From Pseudomonadota bacterium (GTDB taxonomy: Bacteria; Pseudomonadota; Gammaproteobacteria; Steroidobacterales; Steroidobacteraceae), in contig JAJZFQ010000005.1 in NCBI GenBank assembly GCA_021805275.1, forward strand, positions 27,475 through 91,474: a DNA stretch of 64,000 nucleotides. The letters run 5' to 3'. The notes beneath the pieces are model-generated. The model did not search any database, was not told the origin of the DNA, and saw only the letters and a list, made by a program, of their open reading frames with translations. The position numbers and the translations under genes are program-made. Numbering within the stretch: position 1 is the stretch's first letter; every line of letters starts with the position of its first letter. Shown here one piece after another: positions 3,057 through 22,938 of this stretch.

Positions 3057-4547
3057 CTAGCGCACTCCCGGCGATCCGCTGCCCTGCAAGCCTACATGAC
3101 TTGAGGCCTGCTCGGGAACAGCCAGCCGGGCGTGAGCGGTCCGGATCGCCTGCAGGCGCGCGCGCGCTGCCGCGTCGATCGGCGTCGCCGCCCCCGAGGC
3201 GGCATGGCTGTACTGATGGAGCTGATCGGCGGTGGCGATCAGCTGGCCGTCGCTGCGGCGCCTGAGCCAGTGGAACAGATGAACCCGGCTGTCCGCCAGT
3301 CCCAGCACCTGCGTGGTCACGGTCACTGGCTCGAGCGCCCCGGCCCGAGCATGGCGGATCAGATGCGTCTGCACTGCCCCGAAGCCCCGGTCCGCGCCGT
3401 CCGCGCCGCTCGTGCGAAACAGGGCGTCCGCGGCGTCGTCGAACACCTGCAGGCAGCGAGAGTCGCTCAGTTGCCCGTCACGGCCGACCCATTCGGCGCG
3501 CACCTCGGTCTTGAGCGTCTCGAGCGGCCGCTCGCCGGCCGCGGCGCCGGGCTGCACACGCGCGGCGCTTTCGGCATACAGCCGATCCTCGAGCGCACGC
3601 AGGGTGGAGCCCGCACCGATGTCAAACTGCTTCAGGACCTGCTGGATGGCCACCAAGTAATCATCGCGCAGGCGCTCCAGCTCGCGGATCGAACGGCCCG
3701 CAGCCTGGGCCTGTGTCCCCTCGACCATGCGGTCGATGAGCTGCTCGGTAAGCTCCGGCGCCTCGAGCCGCGTCCAGGGCCACTTGAGGCACGGCCCGAA
3801 CTGCCGCAGCATATGCCGCATCCCCGTCTCACCCCCGGCGAGATGATAAATCAGGTTCGTACCCATACCGGCCCAGCGCAGACCGGGGCCGTAGACGATG
3901 GATTCGTCCAGCTCGCCGGTGCTGGCCACCCCGTCGTTGACCATGTGCAGAATCTCGCGCCACAGCGCCTCCTGCAACCGGTCGGTGAGGTGACCCGGCA
4001 CCTCGCGGCGCACCGTGAGCGGATGCATGCCGATATAGGTGAAGAACGTGGCGGCCGCCTTCAGAGACTGCGGGGACGTTGCCTTTCCGCCGACCAGCTC
4101 GACCAGCGGCAGCAGATACACCGGATTGAACGGATGGGCCACCAGGAAGCGTTCCGGGAAGCGCATGTCGCGCTGCAGGTCGGAGGGCATCAGGCCCGAC
4201 GTGCTGGAGGCGATGAGCACGTCCGCGGGCGCATGGCCGCTGACGTCGGCGAGCATCTTCTGTTTCAGCTCCAGCTGCTCCGGGATGTTCTCCTGGATGA
4301 AGTCCGAGCGGCGCGCCATGTCGGCCGGATCGGTCGTGAAGGACAGCGTGCCCTTCGGCGGCAGCGGCGCGCTGGTCAGCTTCGCCAGGGCACCCTCGGC
4401 GTTCGCGACCGCACCGCGAATCCACTCCTCCATCTTGGGATTCACGTCCGCGGCGATCACGTCGATGCCGAAGTGCAGCGCGCGCGCGGCCCAGCCACCC
4501 CCGATCACTCCCGTGCCCAGCAGACCCAATGTCTTGACGCGTCTCAT
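3057..4547 (-). CDS. lcdH: L-carnitine dehydrogenase fused to C-terminal thioesterase
   Basis: A 496-residue protein that would oxidise L-carnitine to 3-dehydrocarnitine with NAD. Residues 8-18 carry the GxGxxG dinucleotide fold (GLLGTGVIGGG). A 3-hydroxyacyl-CoA-dehydrogenase-like body runs to about residue 310. From about residue 335 a hotdog-fold thioesterase-like segment (EVRAEWVGRDGQLSDSRCL onward) is appended. This two-domain layout is known for carnitine dehydrogenases of several proteobacteria, where the extra domain hydrolyses betainyl-CoA. The start at 4547 is preferred over an in-frame ATG at 4604 because AGGCGAGAG lies just upstream of it. The gene is divergent from the NCS1 permease across an AT-rich palindromic region. 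The expected next enzyme, the BKACE that cleaves 3-dehydrocarnitine, is not visible in the window. Confidence 0.85.
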   Translation of the reverse strand: MRRVKTLGLLGTGVIGGGWAARALHFGIDVIAADVNPKMEEWIRGAVANAEGALAKLTSAPLPPKGTLSFTTDPADMARRSDFIQENIPEQLELKQKMLADVSGHAPADVLIASSTSGLMPSDLQRDMRFPERFLVAHPFNPVYLLPLVELVGGKATSPQSLKAAATFFTYIGMHPLTVRREVPGHLTDRLQEALWREILHMVNDGVASTGELDESIVYGPGLRWAGMGTNLIYHLAGGETGMRHMLRQFGPCLKWPWTRLEAPELTEQLIDRMVEGTQAQAAGRSIRELERLRDDYLVAIQQVLKQFDIGAGSTLRALEDRLYAESAARVQPGAAAGERPLETLKTEVRAEWVGRDGQLSDSRCLQVFDDAADALFRTSGADGADRGFGAVQTHLIRHARAGALEPVTVTTQVLGLADSRVHLFHWLRRRSDGQLIATADQLHQYSHAASGAATPIDAAARARLQAIRTAHARLAVPEQASSHVGLQGSGSPGVR

Positions 4548-4605
4548 GCTCTCGCCTGTCACTTGAATTACCTCCCGTCGGCAACTTGCGGCCGCCGGCG
4601 CCATT

Positions 4606-6170: not shown

Positions 6171-7694
6171 CTACGATGGCCGGTAGGATGCGGCGAAGCG
6201 CTCGCGGATAGCCATCAGCTGCCCGGCGATCGCAGCGCTCAACGGCTCCGCTCGGTGCTCGAGGAGCCTGTGCAGGTCGGCGTCGATTCGGGCGAGGAGA
6301 TCCTCATCGGGCAGCGAGCCGCTGCTCACCGGCAGCCGCGCGCCGAAATAGCGGCTCTCCCACAGGTGTTCCCGGCAGTGTGCAGCGGTGTGCGCAAGGC
6401 CGAGGTAGTTGCCGCGCGCACCGACTTCACGTGCGAGATCCAGACCGATCGACTCGGCGTCGATCGGCAGCCCTTGCCACAGCGTGCGCAGCAGGCCGGC
6501 CAGGTCATCGCACAGACATAACGCGTGCAAGGAGAACGTCAGGCCCTGATCGATCGAACCGAGATAATCGAGTGTCGCCGGACGGCTGTAGAAAGCCTGC
6601 ATCATGCCGAGCGCGATCTCGGCCACCGCGTCCTGATTGAAGCGGCGCGCTCCGCTGTGCCCACCCGCACCGGTGAAGCACGGCAGTCCTAGGCGGCGGC
6701 GCACCTGGCACATGAGCATGTCCGCGAGCGAGGCCTGGGCGAAGTTGCCGATCCCGCCGGTGGCCGGCTCCATGAATGAGACGTCCGAGCTGCCGATGCA
6801 GAATGCGCCGCGGCGAACGAGTTGCGCCAGAACCATGCCGGCGAAATCCGTGGCGAGGCTGTTCACGATGCAGCCGGCCGTCGTGATCGGCGTGGAGGCA
6901 CCGCCGATGGGCAGCGTTCCGACGCTCACCGGCACGCCCGCCTGGACGCACTTGAGCAGCTGTTCGACGTGCGCACGCGGATAGTTGAGCGGCAGCGGCG
7001 TGATGATCTGCAGGAAGTACGGCTTGTCGAACAGCGCGGCGCGGCCACCGCGTATCGCCGCCGCCATCTCCAACACCGGGTCGAGCGATTCAGCGTTCTC
7101 GCACAGATACTCCAGCGGCTTGGTCGTGTTCGCCGCCATGATGGCGAACTCCTCAATCTCGCCATGGATATCCGAGCGGGCCACGTTCTTCACCGCCACA
7201 CAGACCGCATCGATGTTGGGTAGCGCGTCGGCGACGCGCGTCACCCGCGCGAGATCCTCGCCATTGCTCGCGCGCGGCTCGCCGCTATCGAGGTCGAAGA
7301 CCTTGATACAGGTCATGCCCGGCATGAACCAGGTGTGCCGGTCGTCGAGCTCGATGCAGCGCCGGCCCGGTCGGTCCCAGAGCTTCGCGGACTTCGCGCT
7401 CGAGGCAAGCGCGTCCCAGACCACCTGCGTCGGAAAGCGCACGATGCCGTCGGCCGAAGCATCGCAACCGGCCTCGCGGAACAGGCTCATTGCCGATGTG
7501 GCGGGATCGAACGCGACGCCGCAGTCATGCATCAGCGTGAGCGCTCCCTCGATCAGCTGCGTGGCGAATTCCCCGGGTACCGGCTCGTACGGGGCGGTCG
7601 CACCGAAATGCAGCCCCGGATCCGCCGGTGGCTCCTCGGACGCGCGGACAGGTTGTCTTCTGGGGCGGCGTGCGGCGCGGGTGTCGTTGGGCAT
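6171..7694 (-). CDS. MttB-family (non-pyrrolysine) quaternary/tertiary amine methyltransferase
   Basis: A 507-residue protein of the trimethylamine methyltransferase MttB superfamily. Visible family segments include WFMPGMTCIKVFDL, EFAIMAANTTKPLEYLCENAES, PLNYPRAHVEQLLKCVQAGVPV and the glycine-rich GAGGHSGARRFNQDA. Archaeal MttB reads an internal UAG as pyrrolysine. Here there is no internal UAG, and the frame ends in tandem stops TAG-TGA. Homologues without pyrrolysine (MtgB, MtcB, MtpB types) transfer a methyl group from glycine betaine, carnitine or proline betaine to a corrinoid protein. No corrinoid-binding partner or reactivase is seen in the window. A longer upstream open frame is only the antisense of the neighbouring flavoprotein; the ATG at 7692-7694 precedes the first conserved sequence. 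Convergent with the permease and divergent from the flavoprotein. Confidence 0.85.
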   Translation of the reverse strand: MPNDTRAARRPRRQPVRASEEPPADPGLHFGATAPYEPVPGEFATQLIEGALTLMHDCGVAFDPATSAMSLFREAGCDASADGIVRFPTQVVWDALASSAKSAKLWDRPGRRCIELDDRHTWFMPGMTCIKVFDLDSGEPRASNGEDLARVTRVADALPNIDAVCVAVKNVARSDIHGEIEEFAIMAANTTKPLEYLCENAESLDPVLEMAAAIRGGRAALFDKPYFLQIITPLPLNYPRAHVEQLLKCVQAGVPVSVGTLPIGGASTPITTAGCIVNSLATDFAGMVLAQLVRRGAFCIGSSDVSFMEPATGGIGNFAQASLADMLMCQVRRRLGLPCFTGAGGHSGARRFNQDAVAEIALGMMQAFYSRPATLDYLGSIDQGLTFSLHALCLCDDLAGLLRTLWQGLPIDAESIGLDLAREVGARGNYLGLAHTAAHCREHLWESRYFGARLPVSSGSLPDEDLLARIDADLHRLLEHRAEPLSAAIAGQLMAIRERFAASYRPS

Positions 7695-9982: not shown

Positions 9983-11128
9983 TCATGACTGCAGAATGAT
10001 CGCCCCGTCTGCCTGCCAGCTGACGTAGACCTCGTCGTTCCAGTCGATCGCCCATTCCGAGGTGCGCCGCTCGTTCTGCGCCTGGACCGTCACCAGCTTG
10101 CCGCTCGGGATCTTGATCTGATAGGTCGACGTCTTACCCAGATAGCCGAGCTCCCAGACGACGCCCCGCAGGACGTTGACCCGCTCTCCTGTGGGGGGCT
10201 GCTTGCCGAGGCGGATCTTCTCCGGCCGCAGCGCCACCCAGACGCGCTGCCGCGGAGAGAATCGACCGACGTCATCCACCAGCAGCTCACCGCCCGTCTC
10301 GTTGCACTGGACCCGCACCAGACCGGTCTCGACGGCCGTCACCGTGCCCTCAAACAGATTTGTCGTACCGACGAAATCGGCAACAAAGCGGCTGTTCGGG
10401 AATTCGTAGATCTCCGAGGGCGTACCGACCTGCACAACCTTGCCGCGATCCATCACGGCAATGCGGCTCGACAGCGCCATGGCCTCGTCCTGATCGTGCG
10501 TGACCACGACGAAAGTGATGCCGACCTCGTGCTGCAGGTCCATCAGCTCGAACTGGGTCTTCTCGCGCAGCTTCTTATCGAGCGCTGAGAGCGGCTCGTC
10601 GAGCAGCAGCACCTTCGGTCGACGGATAAGCGCGCGCGCCAGCGCCACGCGCTGGCGCTGTCCGCCGGAGAGCTGATGCGGCTTGCGCTGCGCCAGATGC
10701 GCAAGCTGCACCATCTCGAGCGCCTGCTCGATGCGCCGTTTGCGCTCCGCGCGATCGATGCGGAAGCGGCGGATGCCGTAGCCCACGTTGCTTTCCACGG
10801 TCATGTGCGGAAACAGCGCGTACGACTGGAACATCATGTTGACGGGCCGCTCGTGCGGCGGCACGTCGCTCATCTCGACGCCGTCGATGCTGATGTGACC
10901 GCTCGTCTGGCGCTCGAATCCCGCGAGCGTGCGCAGCAGCGTGGTCTTGCCGCACCCGGATGAGCCGACCAGCGCGAACATCTCGCCCTGGTAGATGTTC
11001 AGACTGACGTTGTCGACGGCATTGACCACGCCGAATGTCTTGCTCACCGCGTCGATGACGATCTGCGGCTTGGCGCTCGGATCCATCCACGGCCGACCGC
11101 TGTCCGCCTTCAGCCCGTTGTTCGTCAA
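9983..11128 (-). CDS. PotA-like ABC importer ATP-binding protein
   Basis: A 381-residue ATPase of the spermidine/putrescine type. Walker A is GSSGCGKTT, the signature is LSGGQRQRVALARAL, Walker B is VLLLDEPLSALD and the H-loop is VVTHDQDEA. A C-terminal TOBE segment follows (VWVALRPEKIRL onward). It would energise the permease pair at 19864-21643, from which it is separated by about 9 kb. It is the last gene of the minus-strand operon that begins with the aminotransferase at 16932. The start shown is TTG at 11128; an in-frame ATG at 11086 is an alternative, and neither has a strong ribosome-binding site. Confidence 0.85.
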   Translation of the reverse strand: MTNNGLKADSGRPWMDPSAKPQIVIDAVSKTFGVVNAVDNVSLNIYQGEMFALVGSSGCGKTTLLRTLAGFERQTSGHISIDGVEMSDVPPHERPVNMMFQSYALFPHMTVESNVGYGIRRFRIDRAERKRRIEQALEMVQLAHLAQRKPHQLSGGQRQRVALARALIRRPKVLLLDEPLSALDKKLREKTQFELMDLQHEVGITFVVVTHDQDEAMALSSRIAVMDRGKVVQVGTPSEIYEFPNSRFVADFVGTTNLFEGTVTAVETGLVRVQCNETGGELLVDDVGRFSPRQRVWVALRPEKIRLGKQPPTGERVNVLRGVVWELGYLGKTSTYQIKIPSGKLVTVQAQNERRTSEWAIDWNDEVYVSWQADGAIILQS

Positions 11129-11209: not shown

Positions 11210-12412
11210 TCAGAAATCCGCCGGCGGCGTCAACCGGCGCCGTTGCGGGGCAAAAAACGGCCGCTGAACCACCCGCGCCGGCACCATGCGACGCTCCCAG
11301 ACCAGCTCCCGATTGATGTAAATCTCCGCCCACACCTGACGTCCGGCCTCAAAATGCGGTGTATCGAGCATGGCGAGGGCGATGTTGCGCTTGCAGGTGG
11401 GCGACCATGTCGCCGAGGTCACGCTGCCGATCTGGCGCCGCCCCTTGCCGTTCGCATAGAGCAGCGCGTTCTGCGCCGGCTTGTTGCCGGCCACATCAAG
11501 GCCGGCGAGCCGCCGCAAGGGACCGCGCTGCTGCTCGCGCAGCAGCGCCCGGCGCCCGGTGAAATGCCCCTTCCGGAAGTCGATGAGCCACTCGAGACCG
11601 AGCTCGAGCGGCGAGCGGGCCGTGCCGCTGCGCAGGGTGCGCACGCTCGACACGAACTCGACGTTCGGCAGCAGAAAGCCCGCCTCGAGCCGCGCGACAT
11701 TGAGCGCGCGCGAACCGATCGGGCGGATCGTGCGCACCCGCCCGGCCGCCATCAGCCCGTCCCAGAGCCGCTCGGCGTGCGCCGGCTCGACCCAGAGCTC
11801 GTAGCCCAGATCCCCTGTGAACCCAGTGCGCGAGACCATCAGCGACATCGACCCGAGCGTGAACGACCGGAACTCGAACGGCGCGAGCGCCTCGATGCCC
11901 TGCAGCCCAAGCGCCCGCAGTACCCAGCACGAACACGGTCCCTGCAGCGCCAGTGCCGCGATCCCGGCGGTGACCTCCTCGACGTGCACGTCGAAACCGA
12001 TGCTCGAGTCGAGCAGCCAGTCGAGCTGATGCTCGGCCGTGCATAACCGATACTCGCTCGGGGCGAAGCGGAAAACGGTACCGTCGTCGATCAACTTGCC
12101 GTCATCGTCGCACCAGACCACATAGGCCACCCGACCCGCTCGCAGTTTGCCGATCGACCGCGTCACCAGCCGGTCGAGATAGCGCGTCGCATCGGGCCCG
12201 GCGATCCGGTACTTGACCATGGGTGTCAGGTCATAGAGCGAGGCGCCGTTGCGGATCGCGAAATACTCCTGTTCCATCGTCGTGAAGACATCGACGGTGC
12301 TGTATCCGGACCACGGGATGAAGCTGTCGATCTGGCTGAAGGCGCGCATCCGCTCGTGGAATGGGGTGCGCAGCAACGGCTGGCGGAAATGCGGTTCGCT
12401 CTCGTGCCGCAT
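11210..12412 (-). CDS. GcvT/aminomethyltransferase-family (folate-dependent) protein
   Basis: A 400-residue protein of the GcvT/DmdA/sarcosine-dehydrogenase C-terminal family. Visible family segments are YDLTPMVKYRIAGPDA, LALQGPCS and SRTGFTGDLGYELWV, with a C-terminal beta-barrel (FEAGRQVWAEI). Such proteins bind tetrahydrofolate and accept methyl or methylene groups from amines or sulfonium compounds. Here it may collect C1 units released by demethylation of betaine derivatives. Its ATG lies one base after the TGA of the upstream FAD oxidoreductase, so translation is probably coupled. The exact methyl donor is unknown. Confidence 0.8.
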   Translation of the reverse strand: MRHESEPHFRQPLLRTPFHERMRAFSQIDSFIPWSGYSTVDVFTTMEQEYFAIRNGASLYDLTPMVKYRIAGPDATRYLDRLVTRSIGKLRAGRVAYVVWCDDDGKLIDDGTVFRFAPSEYRLCTAEHQLDWLLDSSIGFDVHVEEVTAGIAALALQGPCSCWVLRALGLQGIEALAPFEFRSFTLGSMSLMVSRTGFTGDLGYELWVEPAHAERLWDGLMAAGRVRTIRPIGSRALNVARLEAGFLLPNVEFVSSVRTLRSGTARSPLELGLEWLIDFRKGHFTGRRALLREQQRGPLRRLAGLDVAGNKPAQNALLYANGKGRRQIGSVTSATWSPTCKRNIALAMLDTPHFEAGRQVWAEIYINRELVWERRMVPARVVQRPFFAPQRRRLTPPADF

Positions 12413-12413
12413 C

Positions 12414-13976
12414 TCAGCGGGCCTCCCTCAGCACCTGCCGCGCGGCGTTGCGCCCGGCAAGTCCCATCACGCCCCCGCCCGGGTGACAGCCCGCCCCGCA
12501 CAGGAACAGTCCCGGCAGCGGCGAGCCGTATTGGGCGGCGCCGACCACCGGACGCATCATGAGAAACTGATCGAGTGCAAGCTCCACGTGATGCCAGCTC
12601 CCGCCGCTGATGCGCAACTGCACCTCCAGGTCGCGCGGGGTGAGCAGTTCAGTGGCACTGACGGCGGCGCGCAGCCCCGGCGCGTGCTGCTCCAGCGTCG
12701 CGAGAATCAGCTCCGCGAAGCGCTCGCGCTGCCCGTCCCAACCACCCCGCAGCTGATAGGGCGCGTACTGCACGATGGCCGAGAGCACATGCTTGCCGGC
12801 CGGCGCGAGCTGGCTGTCGCTGCTCGTCGGCACGACGACTTCCAGCACCGGGCGCGCGGAGAATTCACCATATTTGGCATGGTTGAAGGCCCGCTCGATC
12901 GCATCGGCCGACGGTGCGATCACGAGCCGTCCGCGCGGCACGCCGTCGACGCCGGTAAAACTCGGCGCTCTGTCGAGCGCCGCGTGGAACTTCGCTGTCA
13001 TCCCCTGGGTGCGCAGGTGCGCAACGCGGCGCACGAACCCCGCATCCAGATGCTGCGGACCGAGCAGCTTCAGGAAAGTCGTGCGCGGATCGGCGCTCGA
13101 GATCACGCAGTCCGCCTCGATCTGCTCGCCCGAGTCGAGCTGCACCCCGACCGCGCGGTCGTCGGCCACCATGATCCGCGCCACCGGCGCTGCCGTGCGC
13201 ACCGTCGCGCCCGAGGCGCTCGCGGCGCTCTCGATCGCCTCGCAGAGCGCCCCGACACCGCCCGAAGGCAGCGCGAGCCCACCGCCGGCGGCGCTCTCGG
13301 CGGCCATCCGGTACAGCAGCGTGAACACCGTGCCCGGCGAGCGGGGGCCGTAATTGGTGCCCAGCACCGCATCGAACGCGAGGGCACCCTTGAGCAACGG
13401 ACTGTGAAAGTGCTCGTTGAGCAGATCGTGAACGCACATGCCGGCGATCCGCAGCAGCTCACGCAGGTCGCGCCGCCCGAGCAGTCGCACCTTGGCCCCG
13501 AGGCGCAGCAGCCTCAGCCGGTCGCGCCAGTCGCCGCCACCCAGTCGCGGCGGAACCGTCTCGAGCAGCGGCTGCAGGGCGGCAGCGAGCCGTCCCATGC
13601 GCCCGAGGAACTCCGCCAGCGCCTGTGCATCGGCCCCGCTGAGTCCGCCGGCAACGCCCGTGGCAGCCGCCTCGATGCGCAGCGCGGCACCGCCCGGCGC
13701 CAACGCATAGGTGGGCATGCGCTCGGCGGCCATAGTCAGCCCGTGACGGGCGAGGCGGAGCTCATTGACGAGTTGCCGTGGCATCAGGTGCAGCAGGTGC
13801 GCACCGGGGCAAGCCCGGAAACCGGGCGCGAACTCCCGCGTCGCCGCCGCGCCTCCCACGTGCTCGGCGGCCTCGAGTACCAGCACGGATCTTCCGGCGT
13901 GTGCCAAGTACGCCGCGCAGACCAGCCCGTTGTGGCCAGCGCCGATGACGATCGCGTCGTAACACGAGCCGCTCAT
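12414..13976 (-). CDS. Phytoene-desaturase-like FAD oxidoreductase (paralogue 2)
   Basis: A 520-residue protein of the amine-oxidase/phytoene-desaturase-like NAD(P)/FAD superfamily (PYROXD2-like). The FAD-binding N-terminus is YDAIVIGAGHNGLVCAAYLAHAG, followed by VLVLEAAEHVGGAA. A C-terminal cofactor-contact motif (LFLCGAGCHPGGGVMGLAG) closes the FAD site. The start at 13976 overlaps the stop of the upstream paralogue by ATGA, and RBS logic favours coupling. It is a clear paralogue of the next gene upstream, with the same motifs in the same order. No defined substrate is known for this subfamily; oxidation of an amine- or carnitine-derived intermediate is inferred only from the operon. Confidence 0.8.
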   Translation of the reverse strand: MSGSCYDAIVIGAGHNGLVCAAYLAHAGRSVLVLEAAEHVGGAAATREFAPGFRACPGAHLLHLMPRQLVNELRLARHGLTMAAERMPTYALAPGGAALRIEAAATGVAGGLSGADAQALAEFLGRMGRLAAALQPLLETVPPRLGGGDWRDRLRLLRLGAKVRLLGRRDLRELLRIAGMCVHDLLNEHFHSPLLKGALAFDAVLGTNYGPRSPGTVFTLLYRMAAESAAGGGLALPSGGVGALCEAIESAASASGATVRTAAPVARIMVADDRAVGVQLDSGEQIEADCVISSADPRTTFLKLLGPQHLDAGFVRRVAHLRTQGMTAKFHAALDRAPSFTGVDGVPRGRLVIAPSADAIERAFNHAKYGEFSARPVLEVVVPTSSDSQLAPAGKHVLSAIVQYAPYQLRGGWDGQRERFAELILATLEQHAPGLRAAVSATELLTPRDLEVQLRISGGSWHHVELALDQFLMMRPVVGAAQYGSPLPGLFLCGAGCHPGGGVMGLAGRNAARQVLREAR

Positions 13977-15607
13977 CGGCGCAGGTCTGCGAGTATCGCG
14001 CTCGCGGCGTTCGCACCCGGTGCGCCCATCACGCCACCGCCCGGATGGGTGCTCGATCCGCACATATACAGGCCGCGCACGGGCGAGCGGTACCGGGCGT
14101 AGCCCGGGATGGGACGATTGAAGAACAGCTGGTCGAACGTCAGCTCGCCCTGGAAGATGTTGCCCTCGGTGAGCCCCACTTCCTGCTCAAGCTCCCAGGG
14201 TGTGCGGATCTCGGCGTGCAGGATCAGATCCTTGAAGTTCGGACTATGCGCGGCGATGGCATCGATGACGGTCCTGCCGAAGCCCGTGCGCCGCTCCTCC
14301 GTCCATGGTCCGTCGGCGAGCTCGTAGGGGCAGTACTGCACGAACACCGACATGTAGTGCTTGCCCGGCGGCGCCATGGTCGGATCGATCTGCGTCGGGA
14401 TCAGCATGTCGACGTACGGCCGCTGCGACCAGCGTCCTTCTTTCCAGTCGTCGTACGCCCGCTCAAGCATCTCGATGGTGTCGGTAATGTGCATGTCGCC
14501 GCGCGTGCACGGCGAGCCGGCCGGGATGGCGGGGAAGCTCGGCAGAGCGTCGAGGGCGATGTTGAGCTTGCCGGAGGAGCCGCGGATCTTGAACTTGCGC
14601 ACCTGGCCGAGGAACTCATCGGGCAGATCCGCCGGATCCATCGACTCGAGAAACGTGCGGCGCACATCGAGGTTCGACACAACGACCTGGGCCCGAATCT
14701 CCTCGCCGCTCGCCAGCACCACACCGGCCGCGCGGCCGTTGTGCGTCAAGATGCGTTGCACGGCCGCCTCGCTGCGGATCTGCCCGCCCGCGGCATGCAA
14801 TGCCGCACCGAGCGACTGTGTGATCGCGCCCATGCCGCCGCGCGCGAACCCCCAGGCGCCCACGGTGCCGTCGATGCTGCCCATGTAGTGATGCAGCAGC
14901 ACGTAGGCGGTTCCGGGCGAGCGTGGACCGAGCGCCGTACCAATGATCGAGCTGCCGGCCAGATGGGCCTTGACGATCTCGCTCTCGAAGTACTCATCGA
15001 GCAGGTCGGCGCAGCTGAGGGCGAACAGGCGCATGGTGTCGTACATGCGCTCCTCGCCGAGGCCGTAGAGATGCCGGCCGAAGTCGAGCAGCTCGCGGAT
15101 GCCGCCTGGCGTCAGGGTGGCCGGATCCGGAGGAGCGCGCAGCAGCAGCGGCTTGATGAACCGGCAGTGGCGCAACATGTCGCGCACGAACCGGTCGTAG
15201 GCCTCGGCATCCTTGTGCGAGTGTCGCGCGATCTCGCGCCGCAGCGCATCGTGGTTGTCGTAGAGCGCCAGATGCCCGCCGTCGCGCATGAACGTGCAGC
15301 CGCCCTCGTAGGGGATGATCTGCAGGCCGTGCGCGGGCAGGTCCAGCGAACGGATGATCTCGGTGCGCAGCAGACTGCACACGTACGAGCAATTAGAGTA
15401 CTTGAAGCCGCTGTACAGTTCCCGGCTGACCGCCGCGCCACCGATGTACGGATTGCGCTCGAGCACCAGCACGTTCAGGCCGGCGCGGGCCAGGTAACAG
15501 GCTGCCACCAGCCCGTTGTGCCCGGCGCCCACCACGATGACGTCATGCGGCTCCCGCCGGGGCGAGCGCCACGCCATCCCTGAGGCGGGCGCCGAGCTAT
15601 CGCTCAT
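13973..15607 (-). CDS. Phytoene-desaturase-like FAD oxidoreductase (paralogue 1)
   Basis: A 544-residue protein with the FAD fold HDVIVVGAGHNGLVAACYLARAG and VLVLERNPYIGGAA near the N-terminus. A C-terminal motif GLYMCGSSTHPGGGVMGAPG completes the FAD site. The middle holds the LGPRSPGTAYVLLHHYMG segment, which is parallel to YGPRSPGTVFTLLYRM in the downstream paralogue. ATGA overlaps link it to both neighbours: its start overlaps the aminotransferase stop and its stop overlaps the start of paralogue 2. The pair may act as a heteromer or on successive steps. A frame extending upstream to 16132 is the antisense-phase shadow of the aminotransferase and was not used. Confidence 0.8.
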   Translation of the reverse strand: MSDSSAPASGMAWRSPRREPHDVIVVGAGHNGLVAACYLARAGLNVLVLERNPYIGGAAVSRELYSGFKYSNCSYVCSLLRTEIIRSLDLPAHGLQIIPYEGGCTFMRDGGHLALYDNHDALRREIARHSHKDAEAYDRFVRDMLRHCRFIKPLLLRAPPDPATLTPGGIRELLDFGRHLYGLGEERMYDTMRLFALSCADLLDEYFESEIVKAHLAGSSIIGTALGPRSPGTAYVLLHHYMGSIDGTVGAWGFARGGMGAITQSLGAALHAAGGQIRSEAAVQRILTHNGRAAGVVLASGEEIRAQVVVSNLDVRRTFLESMDPADLPDEFLGQVRKFKIRGSSGKLNIALDALPSFPAIPAGSPCTRGDMHITDTIEMLERAYDDWKEGRWSQRPYVDMLIPTQIDPTMAPPGKHYMSVFVQYCPYELADGPWTEERRTGFGRTVIDAIAAHSPNFKDLILHAEIRTPWELEQEVGLTEGNIFQGELTFDQLFFNRPIPGYARYRSPVRGLYMCGSSTHPGGGVMGAPGANAASAILADLRR

Positions 15608-16932
15608 GCTTTGGCCTGGCGGGATCGGTTCTGCGCATCCAGGGTGGCATCGACGGCCTTCTCGAAGGCCGTCAATGTGTGCGTCAGGCACGATTGGTCG
15701 TGCGCCGCACACACGAACCACGGCTCGCGCGAATCCGGTTCGCACAGCACGCGCTCGTCGTGCAGTACTTTGGCGACCGCATCGTAGAAGCTGTAGTCGC
15801 TGCCCTTCCAGTCGCGGTACGTGCGCGGCGGGTCCTGCGCGAAGTACAGGCCGCTCATCGAAGGATGACCGACGAAGCTGTGCGCAATTCCGCGGGCGCG
15901 CAACACGGCGCTCAGGCCCTGACGCAGCGCGGTGCCGTACTCGGCAATCCGTTCGAGCGCGTCGGTCTCGTCGAGAATCTGCAGCGTCCGCTCCGCGGCC
16001 GCCAGCGAAACCGAGTGGGCCGTGTAGGTGCCACCGTGCGCCACACCACGCCCGATCTTGCGCATGATCTCCTCGCGCCCGGCCAGCACCGAGATCGGAT
16101 AGCCGTTGGCGAGCGCCTTGGCAAACGTGCACAGGTCGGCCCGCACGCCGTAGAGTTCCTGCGCACCGCCGCGCGCAACGCGGAATCCGGTCTTCACCTC
16201 GTCGATCAGCAGCAATACACCGTAGCGGTCACACAGCTCGCGCGCGGCGCGCATGTAGAGCGGGTCGGCCGCGATCCCGAGGCAGTTGCCCATGATGGGC
16301 TCGATCAGCAGGCAGGCAATTCTGCCGGCGTAACGCTTGAAGACGTCCTCGAGCTGGTTGGCATCGTTCGCCTGCACGAAATGCGCGAAGCTGCGGGTGC
16401 TGAGCGGTACGCCCTGGCTGTACGGATAGACCTCCGGATCGCCGACCTGCGACCACTTGTCCATGGGCGTGTACCACATGGCCGCGTCGAACAGCCCGTG
16501 ATAGCTGCCCTCGAGGATCACGTAATCGTCCTTGCCGGTGTAAGCGCGGGCCAGGCGCAGCGCGGCCATCACCGCCTCGGTCCCCGAGTTGGAGAAGCGC
16601 ACGAGCTCGGCAGCGGGCACCATCTTGGCGATGCGTTCGGCGACCCGGTACTCGCGCTCAGTGGACAGCGCGAACACCCCGCCAACCTCTATCCCCTCGC
16701 GCGCCGCATCGTCCACACGCGGATCGGCGTAGCCGAGAATCGCCGGACCGTAGCCGAGACGGTAATCGACGTACTCGTTGTCGTCGATGTCGACGATGCG
16801 TCCGCCGCGGCCGCGCTTGATGTAGATCGTGCGCTCCTCGCCCCAGAAGCGGAAATTCGAGGCGACGCCCAGCGGCAGTCGCCTCAGGGCCCGGCGGTAG
16901 TGGGCATGGCTCTTATCGAGGACTCGGGACAT
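15604..16932 (-). CDS. Class-III PLP aminotransferase (glutamate-1-semialdehyde aminomutase-like)
   Basis: A 442-residue PLP enzyme. Family marks are RFSNSGTEAVMAALRLARA, ILEGSYHGLFD, LLIDEVKTGFR (cofactor-binding Asp) and the Schiff-base Lys in TFAKALANGYP. It resembles HemL/GSA aminomutases, but its place at the head of a catabolic operon argues for an amine- or amino-acid-specific transaminase. The start at 16932 is preferred over 16971 because GGAGAG lies just upstream. It is the promoter-proximal gene of the five-gene minus-strand operon and is divergent from the Rieske oxygenase across an AT-rich operator region. The true substrate is unknown. Confidence 0.8.
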   Translation of the reverse strand: MSRVLDKSHAHYRRALRRLPLGVASNFRFWGEERTIYIKRGRGGRIVDIDDNEYVDYRLGYGPAILGYADPRVDDAAREGIEVGGVFALSTEREYRVAERIAKMVPAAELVRFSNSGTEAVMAALRLARAYTGKDDYVILEGSYHGLFDAAMWYTPMDKWSQVGDPEVYPYSQGVPLSTRSFAHFVQANDANQLEDVFKRYAGRIACLLIEPIMGNCLGIAADPLYMRAARELCDRYGVLLLIDEVKTGFRVARGGAQELYGVRADLCTFAKALANGYPISVLAGREEIMRKIGRGVAHGGTYTAHSVSLAAAERTLQILDETDALERIAEYGTALRQGLSAVLRARGIAHSFVGHPSMSGLYFAQDPPRTYRDWKGSDYSFYDAVAKVLHDERVLCEPDSREPWFVCAAHDQSCLTHTLTAFEKAVDATLDAQNRSRQAKA

Positions 16933-16987
16933 ACGCACTCTCCTTCGCCCGTGGTGCTCGCACGGTAGCACCGGCCCCGCAGGCTGT

Positions 16988-17037
16988 CTATATGATTATA
17001 TAGTTTTATGAGCTACAATTATAGACTCATATAATTT
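16988..17037. promoter_or_regulatory. AT-rich promoter/operator between aminotransferase operon and Rieske oxygenase
   Basis: CTATAT-GATT-ATATAG at 16988-17003 is a perfect 6-bp inverted repeat. TTATGAG at 17006-17012 and CTCATATAA at 17026-17034 form a second, wider repeat. A consensus TATAAT (17030-17035) points to the Rieske gene and predicts a transcript starting a few bases past 17040, just before GAGG at 17044. The same TCATAA/TTATGA half-sites occur at the other island promoters. Confidence 0.6.
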
Positions 17038-17055
17038 ATGAGTTCGAGGCTTCCC

Positions 17056-18219
17056 ATGAACGCGCCCGCCGCAGCCCGGACCTGCCCGCCATCAACCTCG
17101 CCGCGCGCCCTGCCGGCCTGGGCCTACAACCATCCCGAGATGAGCCGCCTCGAACTCGAGCGCATTCTCGAGCCGAGTTGGCAGGTCGCCTGCCACCTGA
17201 GCGCCGTGGCGAAACCAGGCGATTTCGCGACCTTCGAGCTCGGCACCAACGGGGTGGTCGTGTTACGCGCTGCCGACGGGCAGATTCACGCCTACCACAA
17301 CGTCTGCCGGCATCGCGGCGCGCGGCTGCTCGAGGGCACGGGCCATTGCTCCGGCCACATCGTCTGCCCGTACCACGGCTGGACCTACCGGCTGAACGGT
17401 GAGCTCAAGGGTGTCTCTGAGCGCGAGAGCTTCCCGGACCTGGATCGCTCGCAATGGAGCCTGAAGCCGGTGCGCACTCAGGTGGCGTTCGGATTCGTGT
17501 TCGTGTGCCTCACCGGCGATCCGCCGTCCGTCGAGGACGCCTGGGGCACACTCGCCGCGGAGCTCACGCCCTACCGCATCGGGGAGATGCGGCCGCTCGG
17601 CCCGCTGTACATCGAGCATTGGGATTGCGACTGGAAGATCGCCATGGACAACTACCTCGAGTCCTACCACGTGCCGCTCGGACACCCGGGCCTGCAGCGC
17701 ATGTTCACGCCCGATTACCAGGACCAGAGGGTGCTGCCAGGCGGCGTCGCGCGCGGCATCAGTCACCTGCGGGAGCAGCCCTCACGCCTCTGGTCGGAGC
17801 GGCTCTACCAGCGGCTCGTCGGCACGACCTGCACCGATCTGCCACCGCCGATGCGCAGCCGCTGGATGTTCTACAGCGCGCTGCCCAACCTCGGCATCGA
17901 CATTTTTCCCGATCAGATGGACTTCTTTCAGGTTCTGCCGCGCGGTCCGGGCAAATGCACCATCCGTGGCGGCAGCTTTGCGCATCCGGATGGACGGCGC
18001 GAGATGCGCGCCCTGCGCTACCTGGGCGCGCGCATCAACCGCCAGGTGCAACGCGAGGATGAGTCGCTCTGCCTGCGTGTGCAGCGCGGCCTCGGCTCGC
18101 GCTCCTACGAGCCCGGACCGCTCTCGCAGCTCGAGGGCTGCATGCTGCAGCTCCACGATCTGTTGCGCGAACGGATCCCGGAAGTGCGCGAGCCTCGCGC
18201 CCCGGCACGGTTCGCCTAG
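17056..18219 (+). CDS. GbcA-like Rieske non-heme iron oxygenase, alpha subunit (glycine betaine/quaternary amine monooxygenase type)
   Basis: A 387-residue oxygenase. The Rieske 2Fe-2S ligands are C84, H86, C104 and H107. The catalytic mononuclear iron site has D198-N199 and H205/H210 in DNYLESYHVPLGH. In this family glycine betaine is N-demethylated to dimethylglycine (GbcA), or carnitine is split to trimethylamine (CntA); stachydrine demethylase is similar. With carnitine dehydrogenase and a DgcA-like flavoprotein nearby, the GbcA role is favoured. An in-frame ATG at 17038 lies inside the promoter box, so the ATG at 17056, with GAGG upstream, is used. No reductase subunit is found in the window. 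Its last codons overlap those of the converging TetR-Rieske fusion, which aligns with this protein along its length. Confidence 0.87.
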   Translation: MNAPAAARTCPPSTSPRALPAWAYNHPEMSRLELERILEPSWQVACHLSAVAKPGDFATFELGTNGVVVLRAADGQIHAYHNVCRHRGARLLEGTGHCSGHIVCPYHGWTYRLNGELKGVSERESFPDLDRSQWSLKPVRTQVAFGFVFVCLTGDPPSVEDAWGTLAAELTPYRIGEMRPLGPLYIEHWDCDWKIAMDNYLESYHVPLGHPGLQRMFTPDYQDQRVLPGGVARGISHLREQPSRLWSERLYQRLVGTTCTDLPPPMRSRWMFYSALPNLGIDIFPDQMDFFQVLPRGPGKCTIRGGSFAHPDGRREMRALRYLGARINRQVQREDESLCLRVQRGLGSRSYEPGPLSQLEGCMLQLHDLLRERIPEVREPRAPARFA

Positions 18220-19829
18220 CCCGCGCCGCTCCGCGTCGCACCGAGGAGCGGCAAGAGCATGGCCACCAAGCCGCGAAACCGCCGCAGCGCCGGCGAGGCC
18301 GGAGCGCTCGGCTCCCGCTCGATCGGCAGCGTCTCGATACCGCGCTGCGTCGACTCCGCGATGGCGAGCTGCGCAGCAAGATCCGCGCTGGCCGCGCTCC
18401 TGGCACGACTCGCCCGCCCCCCGCGCCCGCGACGCAGTCTCAAGCTGAACACCCGTGCGCGCCCAGGGGCCTCCGGCACCACCTGCAAGAGCCGTGCATC
18501 GTTCGCCGAGAGATCAAGCAGTTGATTCGGGGACAGAAAGTATTGATCGGGCACTTCCCGCTCGAGCCACTGCTCGACGATGAGCTTCCAGTCGGCGGCC
18601 ACCGCCAGGGTCTCGAGCGGCCCGGCGCCCAGCTTTGGCCAAACCGCCAGCGGCACGACTGGCAGGGCCGCCGGGGCGACGCCTGCGGGCAGCGGCGAGC
18701 GCACCAGCACCAGCGGCCCGAGCTGCGCCAACTCGAGGCGAGTCAGGTCGCCCGGCGGGGCACCGCGCAGCCGGGCGCCCGTGAAATCGTAGGCCAGATC
18801 ATGGGCTGCACAGACCAACTCGCCCGAGAGACGTCCCGAGGGCGCCTCCACCAGAGCATGCGGCTGTCGACCGCAGGCATTGCGCAGCGCGTGCAGCCGT
18901 CCGTCGGTCCCGCGCACCACCAGCGCCCGCTCCCACGGCCAGGACACGCTGAGATACTCCCCGGTGCGCGCCAGCTGCTCGCCCAATCCCACCACCTGCC
19001 AGGTCGGGCGCAGCAGCCGCTCGCGCTCGAGCGCGAGCAGCGGCGCGCTGCGGTACGCCCACGGCGGCAGGGGGCGGTCCGTGGCCTGGGGCAACGAGCC
19101 GTTGAGATCGCCGTCGATCCGGCCGATGGGTTCCCCACCCACACGCGCCCCATCAGTCCGGGTCGCCACGGGGAACACGCCCGGGAACACCGAGCCCAGA
19201 TAGGCCAGCGAGCGGCGGCGCGCGGCCTCCCGGTCGATGTCGGCCTCGCTCTGAAACGCGAAGCCCTGCCAGAGCAACTCCAGCACGCCGATCAGACCCA
19301 GCGAGATCGCATCACCGTCGAGATGGTGCAGTCCACACTCAGCCATGAGGCCATCGATGAGCTCGCGCACCAGCAGCGCGAAGTCCTCGTCCTTCTTGCC
19401 GCAGATGTCCTGGTATTCCTGCCGGGAGCTCGCCTCGCCCCAGAACGAGTACCAGACGGAGATCTTGCGCGGGCTGGCGATCTGCGGATCGAGATACAGC
19501 TCGACCAAGCGCTCCAGCGCATGGGCAGGGGTGCTCTTCAGCCGGGAGACCACCGCGAGCACGCGCTCCTCGAACTCGGTGGCAAGGTACGCCAGCGAGG
19601 CGACCAGCATCGCGTCCTTGGAATCGAAATAGAAGCGGACGATTCCCGGGGAAAGATTCGCGATCGCGACCACCTTCTCGACGGTCGTGCGCGACGGGCC
19701 GTACAGATGCAGCGCTGAGATGCACGCATCAATCAACCGCTGCCGCTTGCGCATACGCGGCGTGCGGCGTGTCTGGGGAGTCGGTTCGGCTTCGCGTCCG
19801 GTTGACACGGCGGCAAGTCTATCCTGCAT
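18216..19829 (-). CDS. BetI-like TetR regulator fused to a degenerate Rieske oxygenase domain
   Basis: One uninterrupted 537-residue frame. Residues 26-215 are a complete TetR/BetI protein: the helix-turn-helix is TTVEKVVAIANLSPGIVRFYF (residues 48-68), and the BetI-type RKISVWYSFWGEA is at 121-133. After a linker, residues 252-530 align collinearly with the neighbouring Rieske oxygenase from its N-terminal LPPWAY onward. The Rieske site keeps C319, C340 and H343, but the first His is R321. The iron site is lost: DWKLIVEQWLEREVP replaces the Asp-Asn and first His, and about 60 residues that should carry the second His are missing. It is therefore probably a regulator whose dead oxygenase domain senses a substrate of the pathway; sensing is inferred. 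The start at 19829 lacks a clear RBS, and M26 is an alternative. Confidence 0.85.
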   Translation of the reverse strand: MQDRLAAVSTGREAEPTPQTRRTPRMRKRQRLIDACISALHLYGPSRTTVEKVVAIANLSPGIVRFYFDSKDAMLVASLAYLATEFEERVLAVVSRLKSTPAHALERLVELYLDPQIASPRKISVWYSFWGEASSRQEYQDICGKKDEDFALLVRELIDGLMAECGLHHLDGDAISLGLIGVLELLWQGFAFQSEADIDREAARRRSLAYLGSVFPGVFPVATRTDGARVGGEPIGRIDGDLNGSLPQATDRPLPPWAYRSAPLLALERERLLRPTWQVVGLGEQLARTGEYLSVSWPWERALVVRGTDGRLHALRNACGRQPHALVEAPSGRLSGELVCAAHDLAYDFTGARLRGAPPGDLTRLELAQLGPLVLVRSPLPAGVAPAALPVVPLAVWPKLGAGPLETLAVAADWKLIVEQWLEREVPDQYFLSPNQLLDLSANDARLLQVVPEAPGRARVFSLRLRRGRGGRASRARSAASADLAAQLAIAESTQRGIETLPIEREPSAPASPALRRFRGLVAMLLPLLGATRSGAG

Positions 19830-19863
19830 AATGATTTAGGGGGAGATTATCAGCACCCAGAGC

Positions 19864-20754
19864 ATGCATCGCACCAGAAACCCGTGGCGCTGGCTCATCA
19901 TCCTGCCGCCCCTGGTGTTTCTGCTGACCTTCTTTCTGGTGCCGTTCCTCTACACCCTGAAGATCAGCTTCGCCGACTCGGTGATCCGGATACCACCGTT
20001 CAGCGACATATTCACGCGGACGCCCGATCACCACCTGCGCCTGATCCTCAGCCTCGCCAATTTCCGACGCATCTTCACCGAGCGGCTCTACGTCCTCGCG
20101 TATCTGTTCTCACTGCGCACCGCCCTGTGCTCGACGCTGATCTGCCTGCTGCTCGGCTATCCGATTGCCTACGCAATCGCACGGGCGCGGCCGGCAACGC
20201 GCAACATCCTGCTGATGGTCATCATCCTGCCGTTCTGGACCTCGTTTCTGCTGCGTGTCTATGCGCTCGAGGCCATCATCGACAACGACGGCTTGCTGAA
20301 CACGGTGTTGCTGCGCCTGCACATCATTTCGCATCCGCTCGTCATCATGCACACGAATTTTGCCATTTACATCGGCATCATCTACTCGTATCTGCCGTTC
20401 ATGGTTCTGCCGATATTCGCGACGCTGGAGAAGCTCGATTCCTCGCTGCTCGAGGCCGCCGCCGACCTCGGCAGCCCTCCGTGGCGCACATTCCTCGACG
20501 TCACGCTGCCGTTGTCGATGCCTGGTGTGGCAGCCGGCTCGATGCTGGTGTTCATTCCGGCGGTCGGTGAATTCGTCATCCCCTCGTTGCTGGGAGGGCC
20601 GGGCAACCTCATGATCGGCCGTGTCATGTGGGACGAATTCTTCCTCAACCACGACTGGCCGATCGCCTCGGCCGTCGCCATCATGTTCCTGATCGTGCTG
20701 GTCGGTCCGATCGCGGCCTACCGGCACTTCAGCGACCGCAACGCAGAGAGCTGA
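19864..20754 (+). CDS. PotB-like ABC importer permease
   Basis: A 296-residue inner-membrane permease with about six transmembrane helices. It carries the EAA cytoplasmic loop EAAADLGSPPWRTFLDVTLP that docks the ATPase. Its best family fit is the first permease of spermidine/putrescine or related amine importers. The potC-like gene follows after 4 bp. The ATPase of the system is probably the gene at 9983-11128 and the binding protein the one at 21627-22760. A G-rich stretch at 19838-19845 is 18 bp before the ATG, so the start is not fully certain. Divergent from the TetR-Rieske gene across only 34 bp. Confidence 0.88.
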   Translation: MHRTRNPWRWLIILPPLVFLLTFFLVPFLYTLKISFADSVIRIPPFSDIFTRTPDHHLRLILSLANFRRIFTERLYVLAYLFSLRTALCSTLICLLLGYPIAYAIARARPATRNILLMVIILPFWTSFLLRVYALEAIIDNDGLLNTVLLRLHIISHPLVIMHTNFAIYIGIIYSYLPFMVLPIFATLEKLDSSLLEAAADLGSPPWRTFLDVTLPLSMPGVAAGSMLVFIPAVGEFVIPSLLGGPGNLMIGRVMWDEFFLNHDWPIASAVAIMFLIVLVGPIAAYRHFSDRNAES

Positions 20755-20758
20755 GCCC

Positions 20759-21643
20759 GTGCAGCGACGTTACCCCCTGTTCCGCATCACCACCCTGTGC
20801 CTCGGAATCGCCATCCTGTACGTACCCATCGTGGTGCTGATCGGGTACTCCTTCAACGCCTCGCCGCTGGTTAGCCTCTGGGGCGGACTGTCGACCCGGT
20901 GGTACTTTGCACTGCTGCACAAGCACACCCTGCTGCACGCCGCATTGCTGTCACTCGAGATCGCAGTCACCGCTTCCACGACGGCCGTGCTGTTCGGCAC
21001 TCTCGCCGCCATAGCGCTGGTACGTTTCAAGCGCTTCCCGGGACGCTTCCTGCTCACCGGGATGGTCACAGCACCCCTGGTCATGCCGGAGGTCATCACC
21101 GGCATCACACAGCTGCTGTTGTTCGTCTCGCTGCTGCAGACCTTCGGCTGGCCCCACCGCGGCTTCCTGACGATCGTCCTCGCGCACGTGACGTTCTGCA
21201 TCGCCTACGTCACTGTGACGGTGCGCTCACGGCTGCTCAGCGCCGATCGCTCGCTCGAGGAGGCGGCCATGGATCTCGGCGCCGGACCGACGCGAGCCTT
21301 CCTCGAGGTCACACTGCCGCTGATCGCCCCGGCAATCCTGGCGAGCTGGTTGCTCAGCTTCACTCTGTCGCTCGATGATCTGGTCATCTCGAGCTTCGTG
21401 GCCGGTCCGGGCAGCAACACTCTGCCGATGCTGATCTATTCGAAGGTCAAGCTCGGCGTCAGCCCGGTGGTCAACGCGCTGGCGACGTTGATCATCACGC
21501 TGGTCGGCGTGTGTGTCATCGGCGCCGGCTGGATGATGCGCCGGTCCGAGCGGCACCGCGAGCTCGAGATCCGTCTCGCCGAGCAGTCCAATGCGGCTCC
21601 ACCGAACCCCGCGCCGAACGAGGCGCTCAGAGCCCCGTCGTGA
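20759..21643 (+). CDS. PotC-like ABC importer permease
   Basis: A 294-residue permease with about six transmembrane helices and the EAA loop EEAAMDLGAGPTRAFLEVTLP. Conserved PotC-type segments (PIVVLIGYSFNAS near the N-terminus, TLSLDDLVISSFVAGPGSNTLP near the C-terminus) are present. It starts with GTG at 20759, just after the potB-like stop and behind GAGAG. Its 3' end overlaps the converging binding-protein gene by 17 bp. It forms the second half of the transmembrane channel for an amine or betaine importer. Confidence 0.88.
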   Translation: MQRRYPLFRITTLCLGIAILYVPIVVLIGYSFNASPLVSLWGGLSTRWYFALLHKHTLLHAALLSLEIAVTASTTAVLFGTLAAIALVRFKRFPGRFLLTGMVTAPLVMPEVITGITQLLLFVSLLQTFGWPHRGFLTIVLAHVTFCIAYVTVTVRSRLLSADRSLEEAAMDLGAGPTRAFLEVTLPLIAPAILASWLLSFTLSLDDLVISSFVAGPGSNTLPMLIYSKVKLGVSPVVNALATLIITLVGVCVIGAGWMMRRSERHRELEIRLAEQSNAAPPNPAPNEALRAPS

Positions 21644-22760
21644 CACGCATCCAGATGCGCAGCCGCAGCCGCTCGAGCTTCGCGGAAACTTCCTTGGCCT
21701 CGAATAGCCGCGCCTCGACCTGCGGCGGCGGATAGATGGCCGGATCGTGCAGGATCGAAGGATTTACGTAAGGGTTGGCCGCGCGGTTATCGTTGCCGTA
21801 ATGAATTTCGTTGGTGATCGCGGCGATGACGCGCGGTTTGAGCAGATAGTTCAGCCACTCGAGCGCTGCCTGCGGATGCGCCGCACCGGCCGGAATGAGC
21901 CAAGCGTCGTAGGAAATGTTCGCGCCCTCCACCGGAACGGTGAAGGCCAGATCGAGCGTCTTGCCCGCCGCCCGCGCACGCGCCTCGGATACGGAATAGT
22001 CTCCGGAATACGACATGGCGATGCAGAAGTCGCCGTTGATCAGGCCGTTCATGTACTCGGCGGAATCGAACGCTCGGATATACGGGCGCACCGACAGCAG
22101 CAGCTTCTCGGCACGCAGATAGTCGCGCTTGCGGGTGGTGTTCGGGTCGAGATGCAGATAGACCAGTGCCAGCTGCTCGACACCCTCGGGGGAGTTGAGG
22201 AAGGACACCCCGCAGCCCGCGAAATGCTTGACGACATTCGGATCGAACAGCATGCGCAGGCTGTTGACCGGAGCGTTCGGCATGCGCGCGCGGATCTGCG
22301 CGATGTTGTAGGCGAATCCATCGACGCTGTGCAGGTAGGGCACGGCGTAGCGATTGCCCGGGTCCGCCTTCGCCTCGACGGCGAGCGCGTGCGGATCGAG
22401 ATTCTTCCAGTTCGTCAGCTTCGAACGATCCAGCGGCTGGTAGACACCGGCCTTGATCTGCCGGGCGAAGTAATCGGACGAAGCGGCGACTGCATCGTAG
22501 CCGGAGTCTCCCGCCAGCAGCTTCGCCTCCGCGGTCTGCTGGGAATCGTAGGTGTCGTAGATCACCCGGATCCCGGTCTCGGCCTCGAAGTCGCGGACCG
22601 TGTCTTTGCCGATGTAGTCGGCCCAGTTGTATATATAAAGCACGCGCGGGCGATGCGCCTTCGGCACGGCATGCCCGCAACCGCTCGGCGCGAGCACCAC
22701 CGCCGCCAGCAGCGCCGCACGGGCGCAACCGCCGAGGATCGAGTTCATTCTCATGCGCAT
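21627..22760 (-). CDS. PotD/PotF-like periplasmic polyamine/quaternary-amine binding protein
   Basis: A 377-residue exported solute-binding protein. An N-terminal hydrophobic stretch ends at APSGC, either a signal peptidase site or a weak lipobox. The mature part starts with VLYIYNWADYIGKDTVRDFEAETGIRV, the signature of spermidine/putrescine-binding proteins. IPAGAAHPQAALEWLNYLL is the typical C-lobe segment. The start at 22760 is chosen because GGGGAGAG is ideally placed upstream; a longer frame to 22796 lacks this. It delivers substrate to the permeases at 19864-21643. In this island carnitine, betaine or a related amine is more likely than a polyamine. Confidence 0.85.
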   Translation of the reverse strand: MRMRMNSILGGCARAALLAAVVLAPSGCGHAVPKAHRPRVLYIYNWADYIGKDTVRDFEAETGIRVIYDTYDSQQTAEAKLLAGDSGYDAVAASSDYFARQIKAGVYQPLDRSKLTNWKNLDPHALAVEAKADPGNRYAVPYLHSVDGFAYNIAQIRARMPNAPVNSLRMLFDPNVVKHFAGCGVSFLNSPEGVEQLALVYLHLDPNTTRKRDYLRAEKLLLSVRPYIRAFDSAEYMNGLINGDFCIAMSYSGDYSVSEARARAAGKTLDLAFTVPVEGANISYDAWLIPAGAAHPQAALEWLNYLLKPRVIAAITNEIHYGNDNRAANPYVNPSILHDPAIYPPPQVEARLFEAKEVSAKLERLRLRIWMRVTTGL

Positions 22761-22938
22761 TTTCGCTCTCCCCGCGAGCCGCACTGGAGATTTCACCGCG
22801 CTGTGGCCTGCCCCAGTGTAAACCTTACGTGTGCCGAGGAACGGCCCGCGGGCGACAGCACCGCGCGCCGGGCCGTCGCCTGCCGACTGTCAATCCGCTC
22901 GCCCCCCGCGGATCTTGCCGCACGCTGCGATGCTATCG

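Follow-up and report, generated by a model that had tools for sequence, protein, structure and literature searches.

The 64,000-nucleotide window analysed here (contig JAJZFQ010000005.1, positions 27,475 to 91,474, of assembly GCA_021805275.1, a Pseudomonadota bacterium of the family Steroidobacteraceae) encodes a protein in which a BetI-type TetR repressor is fused to what is, by alignment, a catalytically dead Rieske oxygenase alpha subunit. The gene lies on the minus strand at 18216-19829 and is read as one continuous frame of 537 amino acids counted from its ATG; the plus strand of the same interval gives a different product. A first-pass annotation, made from the letters alone, had recognised both the continuous frame and its BetI-like N-terminal regulator, without stating the strand. 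We tentatively propose, with a little less than even confidence, that the protein represses the quaternary-amine gene cluster in which it lies, and that its dead oxygenase half supplies a further signal, most likely as a sensor of metal or redox state.

The domain analysis agreed with this two-part description. Both TetR_N and the BetI-type domain TetR_C_6 were found above their Pfam cut-offs in the N-terminal half, which takes up a TetR fold. The C-terminal half has the overall fold of a Rieske non-heme iron oxygenase alpha subunit, and no match to the catalytic domain Ring_hydroxyl_A was found by Pfam in the fusion protein. Structure prediction, suggested in the first-pass annotation as a check, gave predicted local distance difference test (pLDDT) values mostly above 90 for the TetR_C_6 domain and a confidently folded C-terminal half, for which the best structural matches were the quaternary-ammonium oxygenases CntA and Stc2. 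Like BetI and other TetR_C_6 repressors, the fusion combines TetR_N with a BetI-type C-terminal domain in a quaternary-ammonium gene context, but it carries an extra oxygenase-derived domain of 280 residues and scores only 70.8 bits against the BetI equivalog model TIGR03384, below the curated cut-off of 201.3. It differs from the group V oxygenases CntA and Stc2 in that it lacks both the His-His-Asp site and the canonical C-x-H, and is joined to a repressor. The true translation start is uncertain among three candidates (ATG 19829, GTG 19808 and ATG 19754). The first ATG (19827-19829) falls inside a conserved upstream element, and ATG 19754 would fit because the close homologue P0001 has 512 amino acids.

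We also searched about 5.8 billion proteins for the same architecture, as the first-pass annotation had recommended, and scored 7994 candidates. At least 1716 proteins matched the fusion at E<=1e-3, not all of which need be fusions, and TetR_C_6 and Rieske parts occurred together in 119 of the best 120, which are those listed (P0070 has no Rieske part). A frameshift, chimera or sequencing artefact is ruled out by these independent homologues. In other words, the fusion is not an assembly error, because the same arrangement is found in 119 of the 120 listed homologues and recurs in uncultured genomes. A scan of GTDB 220 with one genome per species, seeded on the TetR half, returned 72 loci, mostly in records titled as metagenome-assembled genomes of Gammaproteobacteria or Proteobacteria, and six of them from Steroidobacteraceae. 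Among 200 genomes from the family of the closest locus, sorted by E-value and extent, 51 carried a complete or almost complete dead fusion, and in another 12 the regulator was eroded, cut or reduced to its TetR half. A search seeded on the divergent locus L053 gave three matches. As a separate observation, L066 (6457-7773, in a record titled Rhodospirillales) belongs to the same TetR lineage and adjoins the same oxygenase, with a different C-terminal part that has no Pfam match.

The loss of the catalytic site was evident from comparison with RHO1, the intact Rieske oxygenase encoded next door. BLASTP aligned the two proteins at 30% identity over fusion residues 247-423 and at 24% over 430-507. 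Given that RHO1 209-278 faces only fusion residues 424-429, about 64 residues are missing from the fusion, close to the 60 or so estimated in the first-pass annotation. In CntA, the available part of PMC7948474 gives His208, His213 and Asp323 as the iron ligands and Glu205 as the bridging acid, and by comparison the ligands of RHO1 are H211, H216 and D341. In the fusion these positions are occupied by a gap, by V and, counting from the QRG motif, by Q, so that all three iron ligands are gone and the site, as judged from the alignment, is dead. The first-pass annotation had reached the same conclusion by a partly different route, reporting that an Asp-Asn pair and a His were replaced by EQWLERE. 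Ligands are indeed lost, but the Asp-Asn pair (RHO1 204-205) does not bind iron, and E423 is the surviving bridging acid, the position being acidic (E or D) throughout the 121 aligned rows. In other clades this catalytic stretch is longer than in the window's fusion, and no aligned row has His opposite RHO1 H211. Asp was found at the third ligand place in 10 of 56 loci, which are those with more than 100 aligned C-terminal positions (L058, L061, L063 and L065 fall below this). L040, L041 and L044 may hold metal, because the region of the former iron site in them still has an H-x4-H, shifted two residues closer than its counterpart in the oxygenase, and Asp as the third potential ligand. In L043 the second His of this motif is absent; L041, L043 and L044 also retain the canonical Rieske His. 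Some fusions of this sub-clade may therefore still bind iron.

The Rieske loop has been altered in a different manner. C319, R321, C340 and H343 are present as the first-pass annotation stated, and its count of three remaining Rieske ligands out of four is literally right, but it overlooked a candidate substitute, H324, which lies at C+5 after P323 and is invariant alongside C319, C340 and H343. The full quartet was found in 119 of the 120 listed homologues and in 53 of the 56 loci, the exceptions being L011 (a deletion), L053 and L066. The canonical motif C-x-H ... C-x2-H is thus replaced by one beginning C-x-R in the window. Position 321 is variable (R, K, Q, E, V, H and others), with the canonical His retained in seven of the 53 full-quartet loci and two of the 119 listed homologues. 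The loop ranks with the best-conserved regions of the dead half, whereas the C-terminal domain columns average 0.41-0.57 majority residue. What is new in the dead family, on the evidence of these alignments, is that the canonical His became dispensable and the C+5 His did not. H324 may be a cluster ligand.

Next to the regulator we found a quaternary-ammonium catabolic cluster, and the same cluster recurs beside the fusion in uncultured bacterial genomes. The aminotransferase gene was present in 49 of 70 fetched stretches, many of them short. A gene for an OYE-type flavoprotein is also among the neighbours, an aldehyde dehydrogenase gene is inserted in some clades (L017 and L019 were tested), and Pfam recognised no oxygenase reductase among 28 window proteins. 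The description of the neighbouring oxygenase as GbcA-like is not borne out by its aromatic marker. RHO1 has Y206, the aromatic marker of group Va (CntA-like) enzymes, not of GbcA (group Vb), and W421 holds the corresponding Tyr203 position in the fusion. In the gap between regulator and permease genes lies a conserved 22-base element, a candidate promoter or operator, 27 bases from the inferred permease start. It was sought in 14 of 44 delimited regions and found at 24-27 bases in 12 of these 14, all of the window's clade. In L011 a similar element stands at 55 bases, and in L014 it was not found. The element scored 28.4 bits; ten single-base shuffles, which ignore kinship, averaged 13.2 and reached at most 13.8. 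A promoter and terminator scan of 16900-20000 found none. We also note that the fusion and RHO1 genes overlap by four bases at 18216-18219 and that no terminator-like site was found in the same interval. In several loci (L019, L020, L021, L023, L030, L033, L039, L047, L050 and L064) a second Rieske oxygenase, with the motif ENYNECLH, lies between the fusion and RHO1.

Taken with its gene context, the fusion would act as a repressor of the carnitine- or betaine-like uptake and catabolic cluster around its gene. Its TetR half would bind DNA within the short intergenic stretch that separates its gene from the divergent permease genes, and the BetI-type pocket of that half would most likely sense a quaternary amine or a product. 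Among other TetR structures, the TetR half alone matches one solved with choline and with N,N-dimethylmethanamine, and for this reason the repressor half may itself do the ligand sensing. In the dead, group-V-like half, C319, C340, H343 and H324 most likely still hold a metal cluster, with H324 replacing the His lost at position 321. Through this cluster the protein would read out redox state, oxygen or the supply of Fe-S, and hence whether conditions allow the oxygenase pathway to operate. Because some regulators in an equivalent gene setting consist of the TetR half alone, the oxygenase half does not seem to be needed for binding DNA or for basic induction, and it therefore resembles an additional input. 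Its signal is most probably metal or redox state, because the loop is among the best-conserved elements of this half and because oxygenase chains can signal redox, as with ThnA3/ThnY. Sensing of iron-sulfur or redox state was the second option of the first-pass annotation, and the conservation of the loop favours it.

The first option of that annotation, that the substrate pocket was recruited, is the main rival and ranks second. According to this idea, which we consider rather unlikely, the dead half would bind a quaternary amine in its old pocket through a cation-pi contact with W421 and signal to the DNA-binding half. W421 occupies the position of CntA Tyr203, which contacts the ammonium group in this way (in the available part of PMC7948474, Glu205 bridging to the Rieske centre), and it is W in all 120 listed homologues and in 42 of 54 loci; the bridging position is E or D in all 120 and in 40 of 54 loci. 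The match to CntA and Stc2 also points this way, as does the CntA variant Y203F, which is reported to remain active. The mechanism would be analogous to the use of an aminotransferase-derived domain by MocR/GabR. However, the domain has lost about 64 residues in the window's protein, no aromatic is present at position 421 in 12 of the 54 loci, and the TetR half has conserved aromatic residues of its own that probably line a pocket. In addition, the TetR half occurs by itself in an equivalent setting at eight loci.

Several observations weigh against the proposal of a metal or redox input to a DNA-bound repressor. A C+5 His is also present, beside the canonical His, in CntA (CPHRGH) and in all 120 listed intact fusions described below, and is thus probably ancestral; since it is not a ligand in CntA (PMC7948474, available part), H324 may be structural. 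A palindrome search of 66 upstream regions returned only apparent permease coding sequence. The choline-bound TetR structure scores level with others that lack such a ligand (3crj 21.0, 3e7q 20.8) and is absent from the 60 listed sequence matches. The C-terminal half is missing altogether in L051, L052, L055-L057, L059, L060 and L062, most or all cluster residues are lost in L011, L058, L061, L063 and L065, and the last His is replaced by Asp in L053. In the TetR tree, a group of 33 rows (support 98), most of them fusions, contains the eight TetR-only loci as two distinct sets. Parsimony required two changes for them, one forced by well-supported branches, and four changes, two of them forced, for the eroded rows. 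The oxygenase half is therefore not indispensable, because it was lost or eroded in several lineages. The ratio of nonsynonymous to synonymous substitution rates (dN/dS) lay at 0.05-0.18 in the TetR half and was 1.6 to 8.4 times higher, at 0.18-0.55, in the C-terminal half, as calculated from 19/20 pairs per half that share rows, many with dS near or above 1 and one (L040/L069) with 61 codons. Relaxed selection, erosion, complete losses and the existence of intact-ligand fusions would all fit a decaying remnant of a live fusion, a passenger with no sensing role that perhaps only steadies the fold. We consider this improbable, given that the four potential ligands are near-invariant wherever the loop is kept in a domain whose columns vary far more, that dN/dS stays below 1, and that the model is confidently folded. 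These rates indicate that the C-terminal half is under relaxed but continuing constraint.

RHO1 co-occurs with the regulator. In the 200 genomes, the regulator lineage and a close RHO1 (E<=1e-145) occurred together in 59, the regulator only in four and RHO1 only in two, while 135 had neither (Fisher p 3e-43, without correction for kinship); one of the four, G001, has a 111-residue piece instead. Such co-occurrence raises the question of whether the dead alpha subunit docks on the active RHO1 trimer or on its reductase, in which case the regulator would gauge the amount of enzyme or be drawn off the DNA. RHO1 is found in 48 of 51 dead-fusion genomes and in all five tested genomes where it is not adjacent to the fusion (one as the 111-residue piece), and the usual interface residues between Rieske and bridging-acid sites are retained in many rows. 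However, co-occurrence is also expected from membership of one pathway, and RHO1 also accompanies 11 of 12 eroded, TetR-only or cut regulators. We regard this interaction module as the least probable of the explanations weighed here.

Fusions that keep all oxygenase ligands also exist. They were found in five of the 200 genomes (loci L073-L077), and a search for them gave at least 854 proteins at E<=1e-3 from a pool of 7999; the best 120 are those listed (P0124-P0243). All of these 120 keep the Rieske, catalytic, bridging and Tyr203 positions. Intact and dead fusions have TetR_N, TetR_C_6 and Rieske parts in the same order and occur in the same bacterial family. Four of the five intact loci have similar pathway genes, whereas the TetR halves of the intact forms are only 34-40% identical to that of the window. 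A close RHO1 was found in none of the five intact-fusion genomes, against 48 of 51 with a dead fusion; one of the five, G016, has another oxygenase at 44%. G016 also has an unfused TetR gene in tandem with an oxygenase gene, joined by an ATGA stop/start overlap (L078, about 5049-6865, minus strand), which is a possible pre-fusion arrangement. We suggest that a TetR gene and an oxygenase gene fused, plausibly by way of a live repressor-enzyme like the intact relatives. The tree tests were split on a shared origin of the intact and dead fusions. The TetR-half tree groups intact with dead fusions (97/69), but p was 0.059 when only fused rows were held together, and the unfused L070 fell among the dead fusions; six of 12 TetR paralogue regions gave usable frames for it. 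In an oxygenase-half tree that leaves out fused rows L022, L025, L048, L050 and L071, intact and dead fusions together were not rejected (p 0.674). In another oxygenase tree this grouping had support 54, and neither intact fusions with RHO1 (p 0.59) nor RHO1 with the dead domains (p 0.478) was rejected. Recent duplication of the adjoining RHO1 was considered separately and not supported, the fused domains grouping apart from RHO1.

Features of the window that bear on the fusion and its gene cluster
Feature	Position	Strand	Basis or remark
TetR (BetI-type)-dead Rieske oxygenase fusion gene	18216..19829	-	longest ATG frame, 537 aa; Pfam, homologues, alignment
TetR_N DNA-binding domain, residues 32-77	19599..19736	-	Pfam 24.3 bits, cut-off 24
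TetR_C_6 BetI-type domain, residues 101-214	19188..19529	-	39.3 bits, cut-off 27; pLDDT mostly >90
Low-confidence linker, residues 224-244	19098..19160	-	pLDDT <50
Rieske-fold domain, residues 276-358	18756..19004	-	Pfam PF00355 30 bits, cut-off 20.3
Altered cluster loops C319-x4-H324 ... C340-x2-H343, R321 replacing canonical His	18801..18875	-	alignments
EQWLE (419-423), catalytic-helix remnant without iron ligands; W421 at CntA Tyr203 position, E423 at bridging Glu position	18561..18575	-	alignments
Catalytic-domain remnant of oxygenase, residues 400-533, about 64 residues deleted	18231..18632	-	BLASTP, structure model, fold comparison
RHO1, intact Rieske oxygenase, convergent with fusion, 4-base overlap; group Va aromatic marker Y206	17038..18219	+	
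Class III aminotransferase	15604..16971	-	Pfam, cluster comparison
FAD amine-oxidase-like gene, true start probably inside frame	13973..16132	-	
Second FAD amine-oxidase-like gene	12414..14063	-	
GcvT-like folate-dependent protein	11210..12412	-	
PotA/PotG-like ABC transporter ATPase	9983..11128	-	
Conserved 22-base element, regulator/permease gap, candidate promoter/operator	19815..19836	.	overlaps first ATG of regulator frame
PotH/PotB-like permease, divergent from regulator	19864..20754	+	beside regulator in 66/70 lineage loci
Second permease	20759..21643	+	
PotF-like solute-binding protein	21627..22796	-	
Carnitine 3-dehydrogenase-like protein with thioesterase-like domain, outlying	3057..4604	-	also beside cluster in L022, L038

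Elsewhere in the window, an unfused BetI-type TetR (TetR_N, TetR_C_6), distant from the fused one, is encoded beside the carnitine-dehydrogenase-like gene (2411-3052, minus strand). A TPR protein with a 2OG-Fe(II) oxygenase domain (34686-36611, plus strand) and a cobalamin riboswitch (63432-63650, minus strand, 113 bits) were also found.

Regulators built on enzyme domains are known. MocR/GabR likewise join a DNA-binding domain to an enzyme-derived effector domain, but in the accounts available these are a GntR-type winged helix and a pyridoxal phosphate (PLP) aminotransferase fold with no metal cluster, whereas the fusion combines TetR and Rieske oxygenase folds. In tetralin degradation, the accessible part of PMC4814904 describes oxygenase electron-chain components or look-alikes (ThnA3, ThnY) that regulate oxygenase genes; ThnY, however, is a separate ferredoxin-reductase-like flavoprotein working with a LysR activator, not a Rieske-TetR fusion. 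The available part of PMC7810876 describes a TetR repressor, Rv3160c, that controls the adjacent putative Rieske oxygenase gene Rv3161c, the two being separate proteins. We found no Rieske-based transcription factor among the papers listed in searches of the open-licence literature on TetR-Rieske fusions and on quaternary-amine oxygenase repressors, in line with the statement of the first-pass annotation that no regulator with a dead Rieske alpha subunit as its sensor is known to have been described.

It is possible, though on balance doubtful, that the fusions constitute a new class of one-component regulators, descended from a bifunctional repressor-oxygenase that survives as the intact fusions, in which a TetR repressor would sense redox state, oxygen or Fe-S through a re-wired Rieske-type cluster (C-x4-H ... 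C-x2-H). Because dead, intact, unfused tandem and secondary-loss forms occur in related genomes, each stage in the derivation of a sensor from an enzyme is open to test. Should the loop prove to hold a cluster, the range of ligand patterns known for Rieske proteins would widen, and quaternary-amine metabolism would have a redox-gated repressor. If the re-wired sensor did arise from a repressor-oxygenase, the family would display a visible path from a catalytic enzyme-repressor to a pure sensor.
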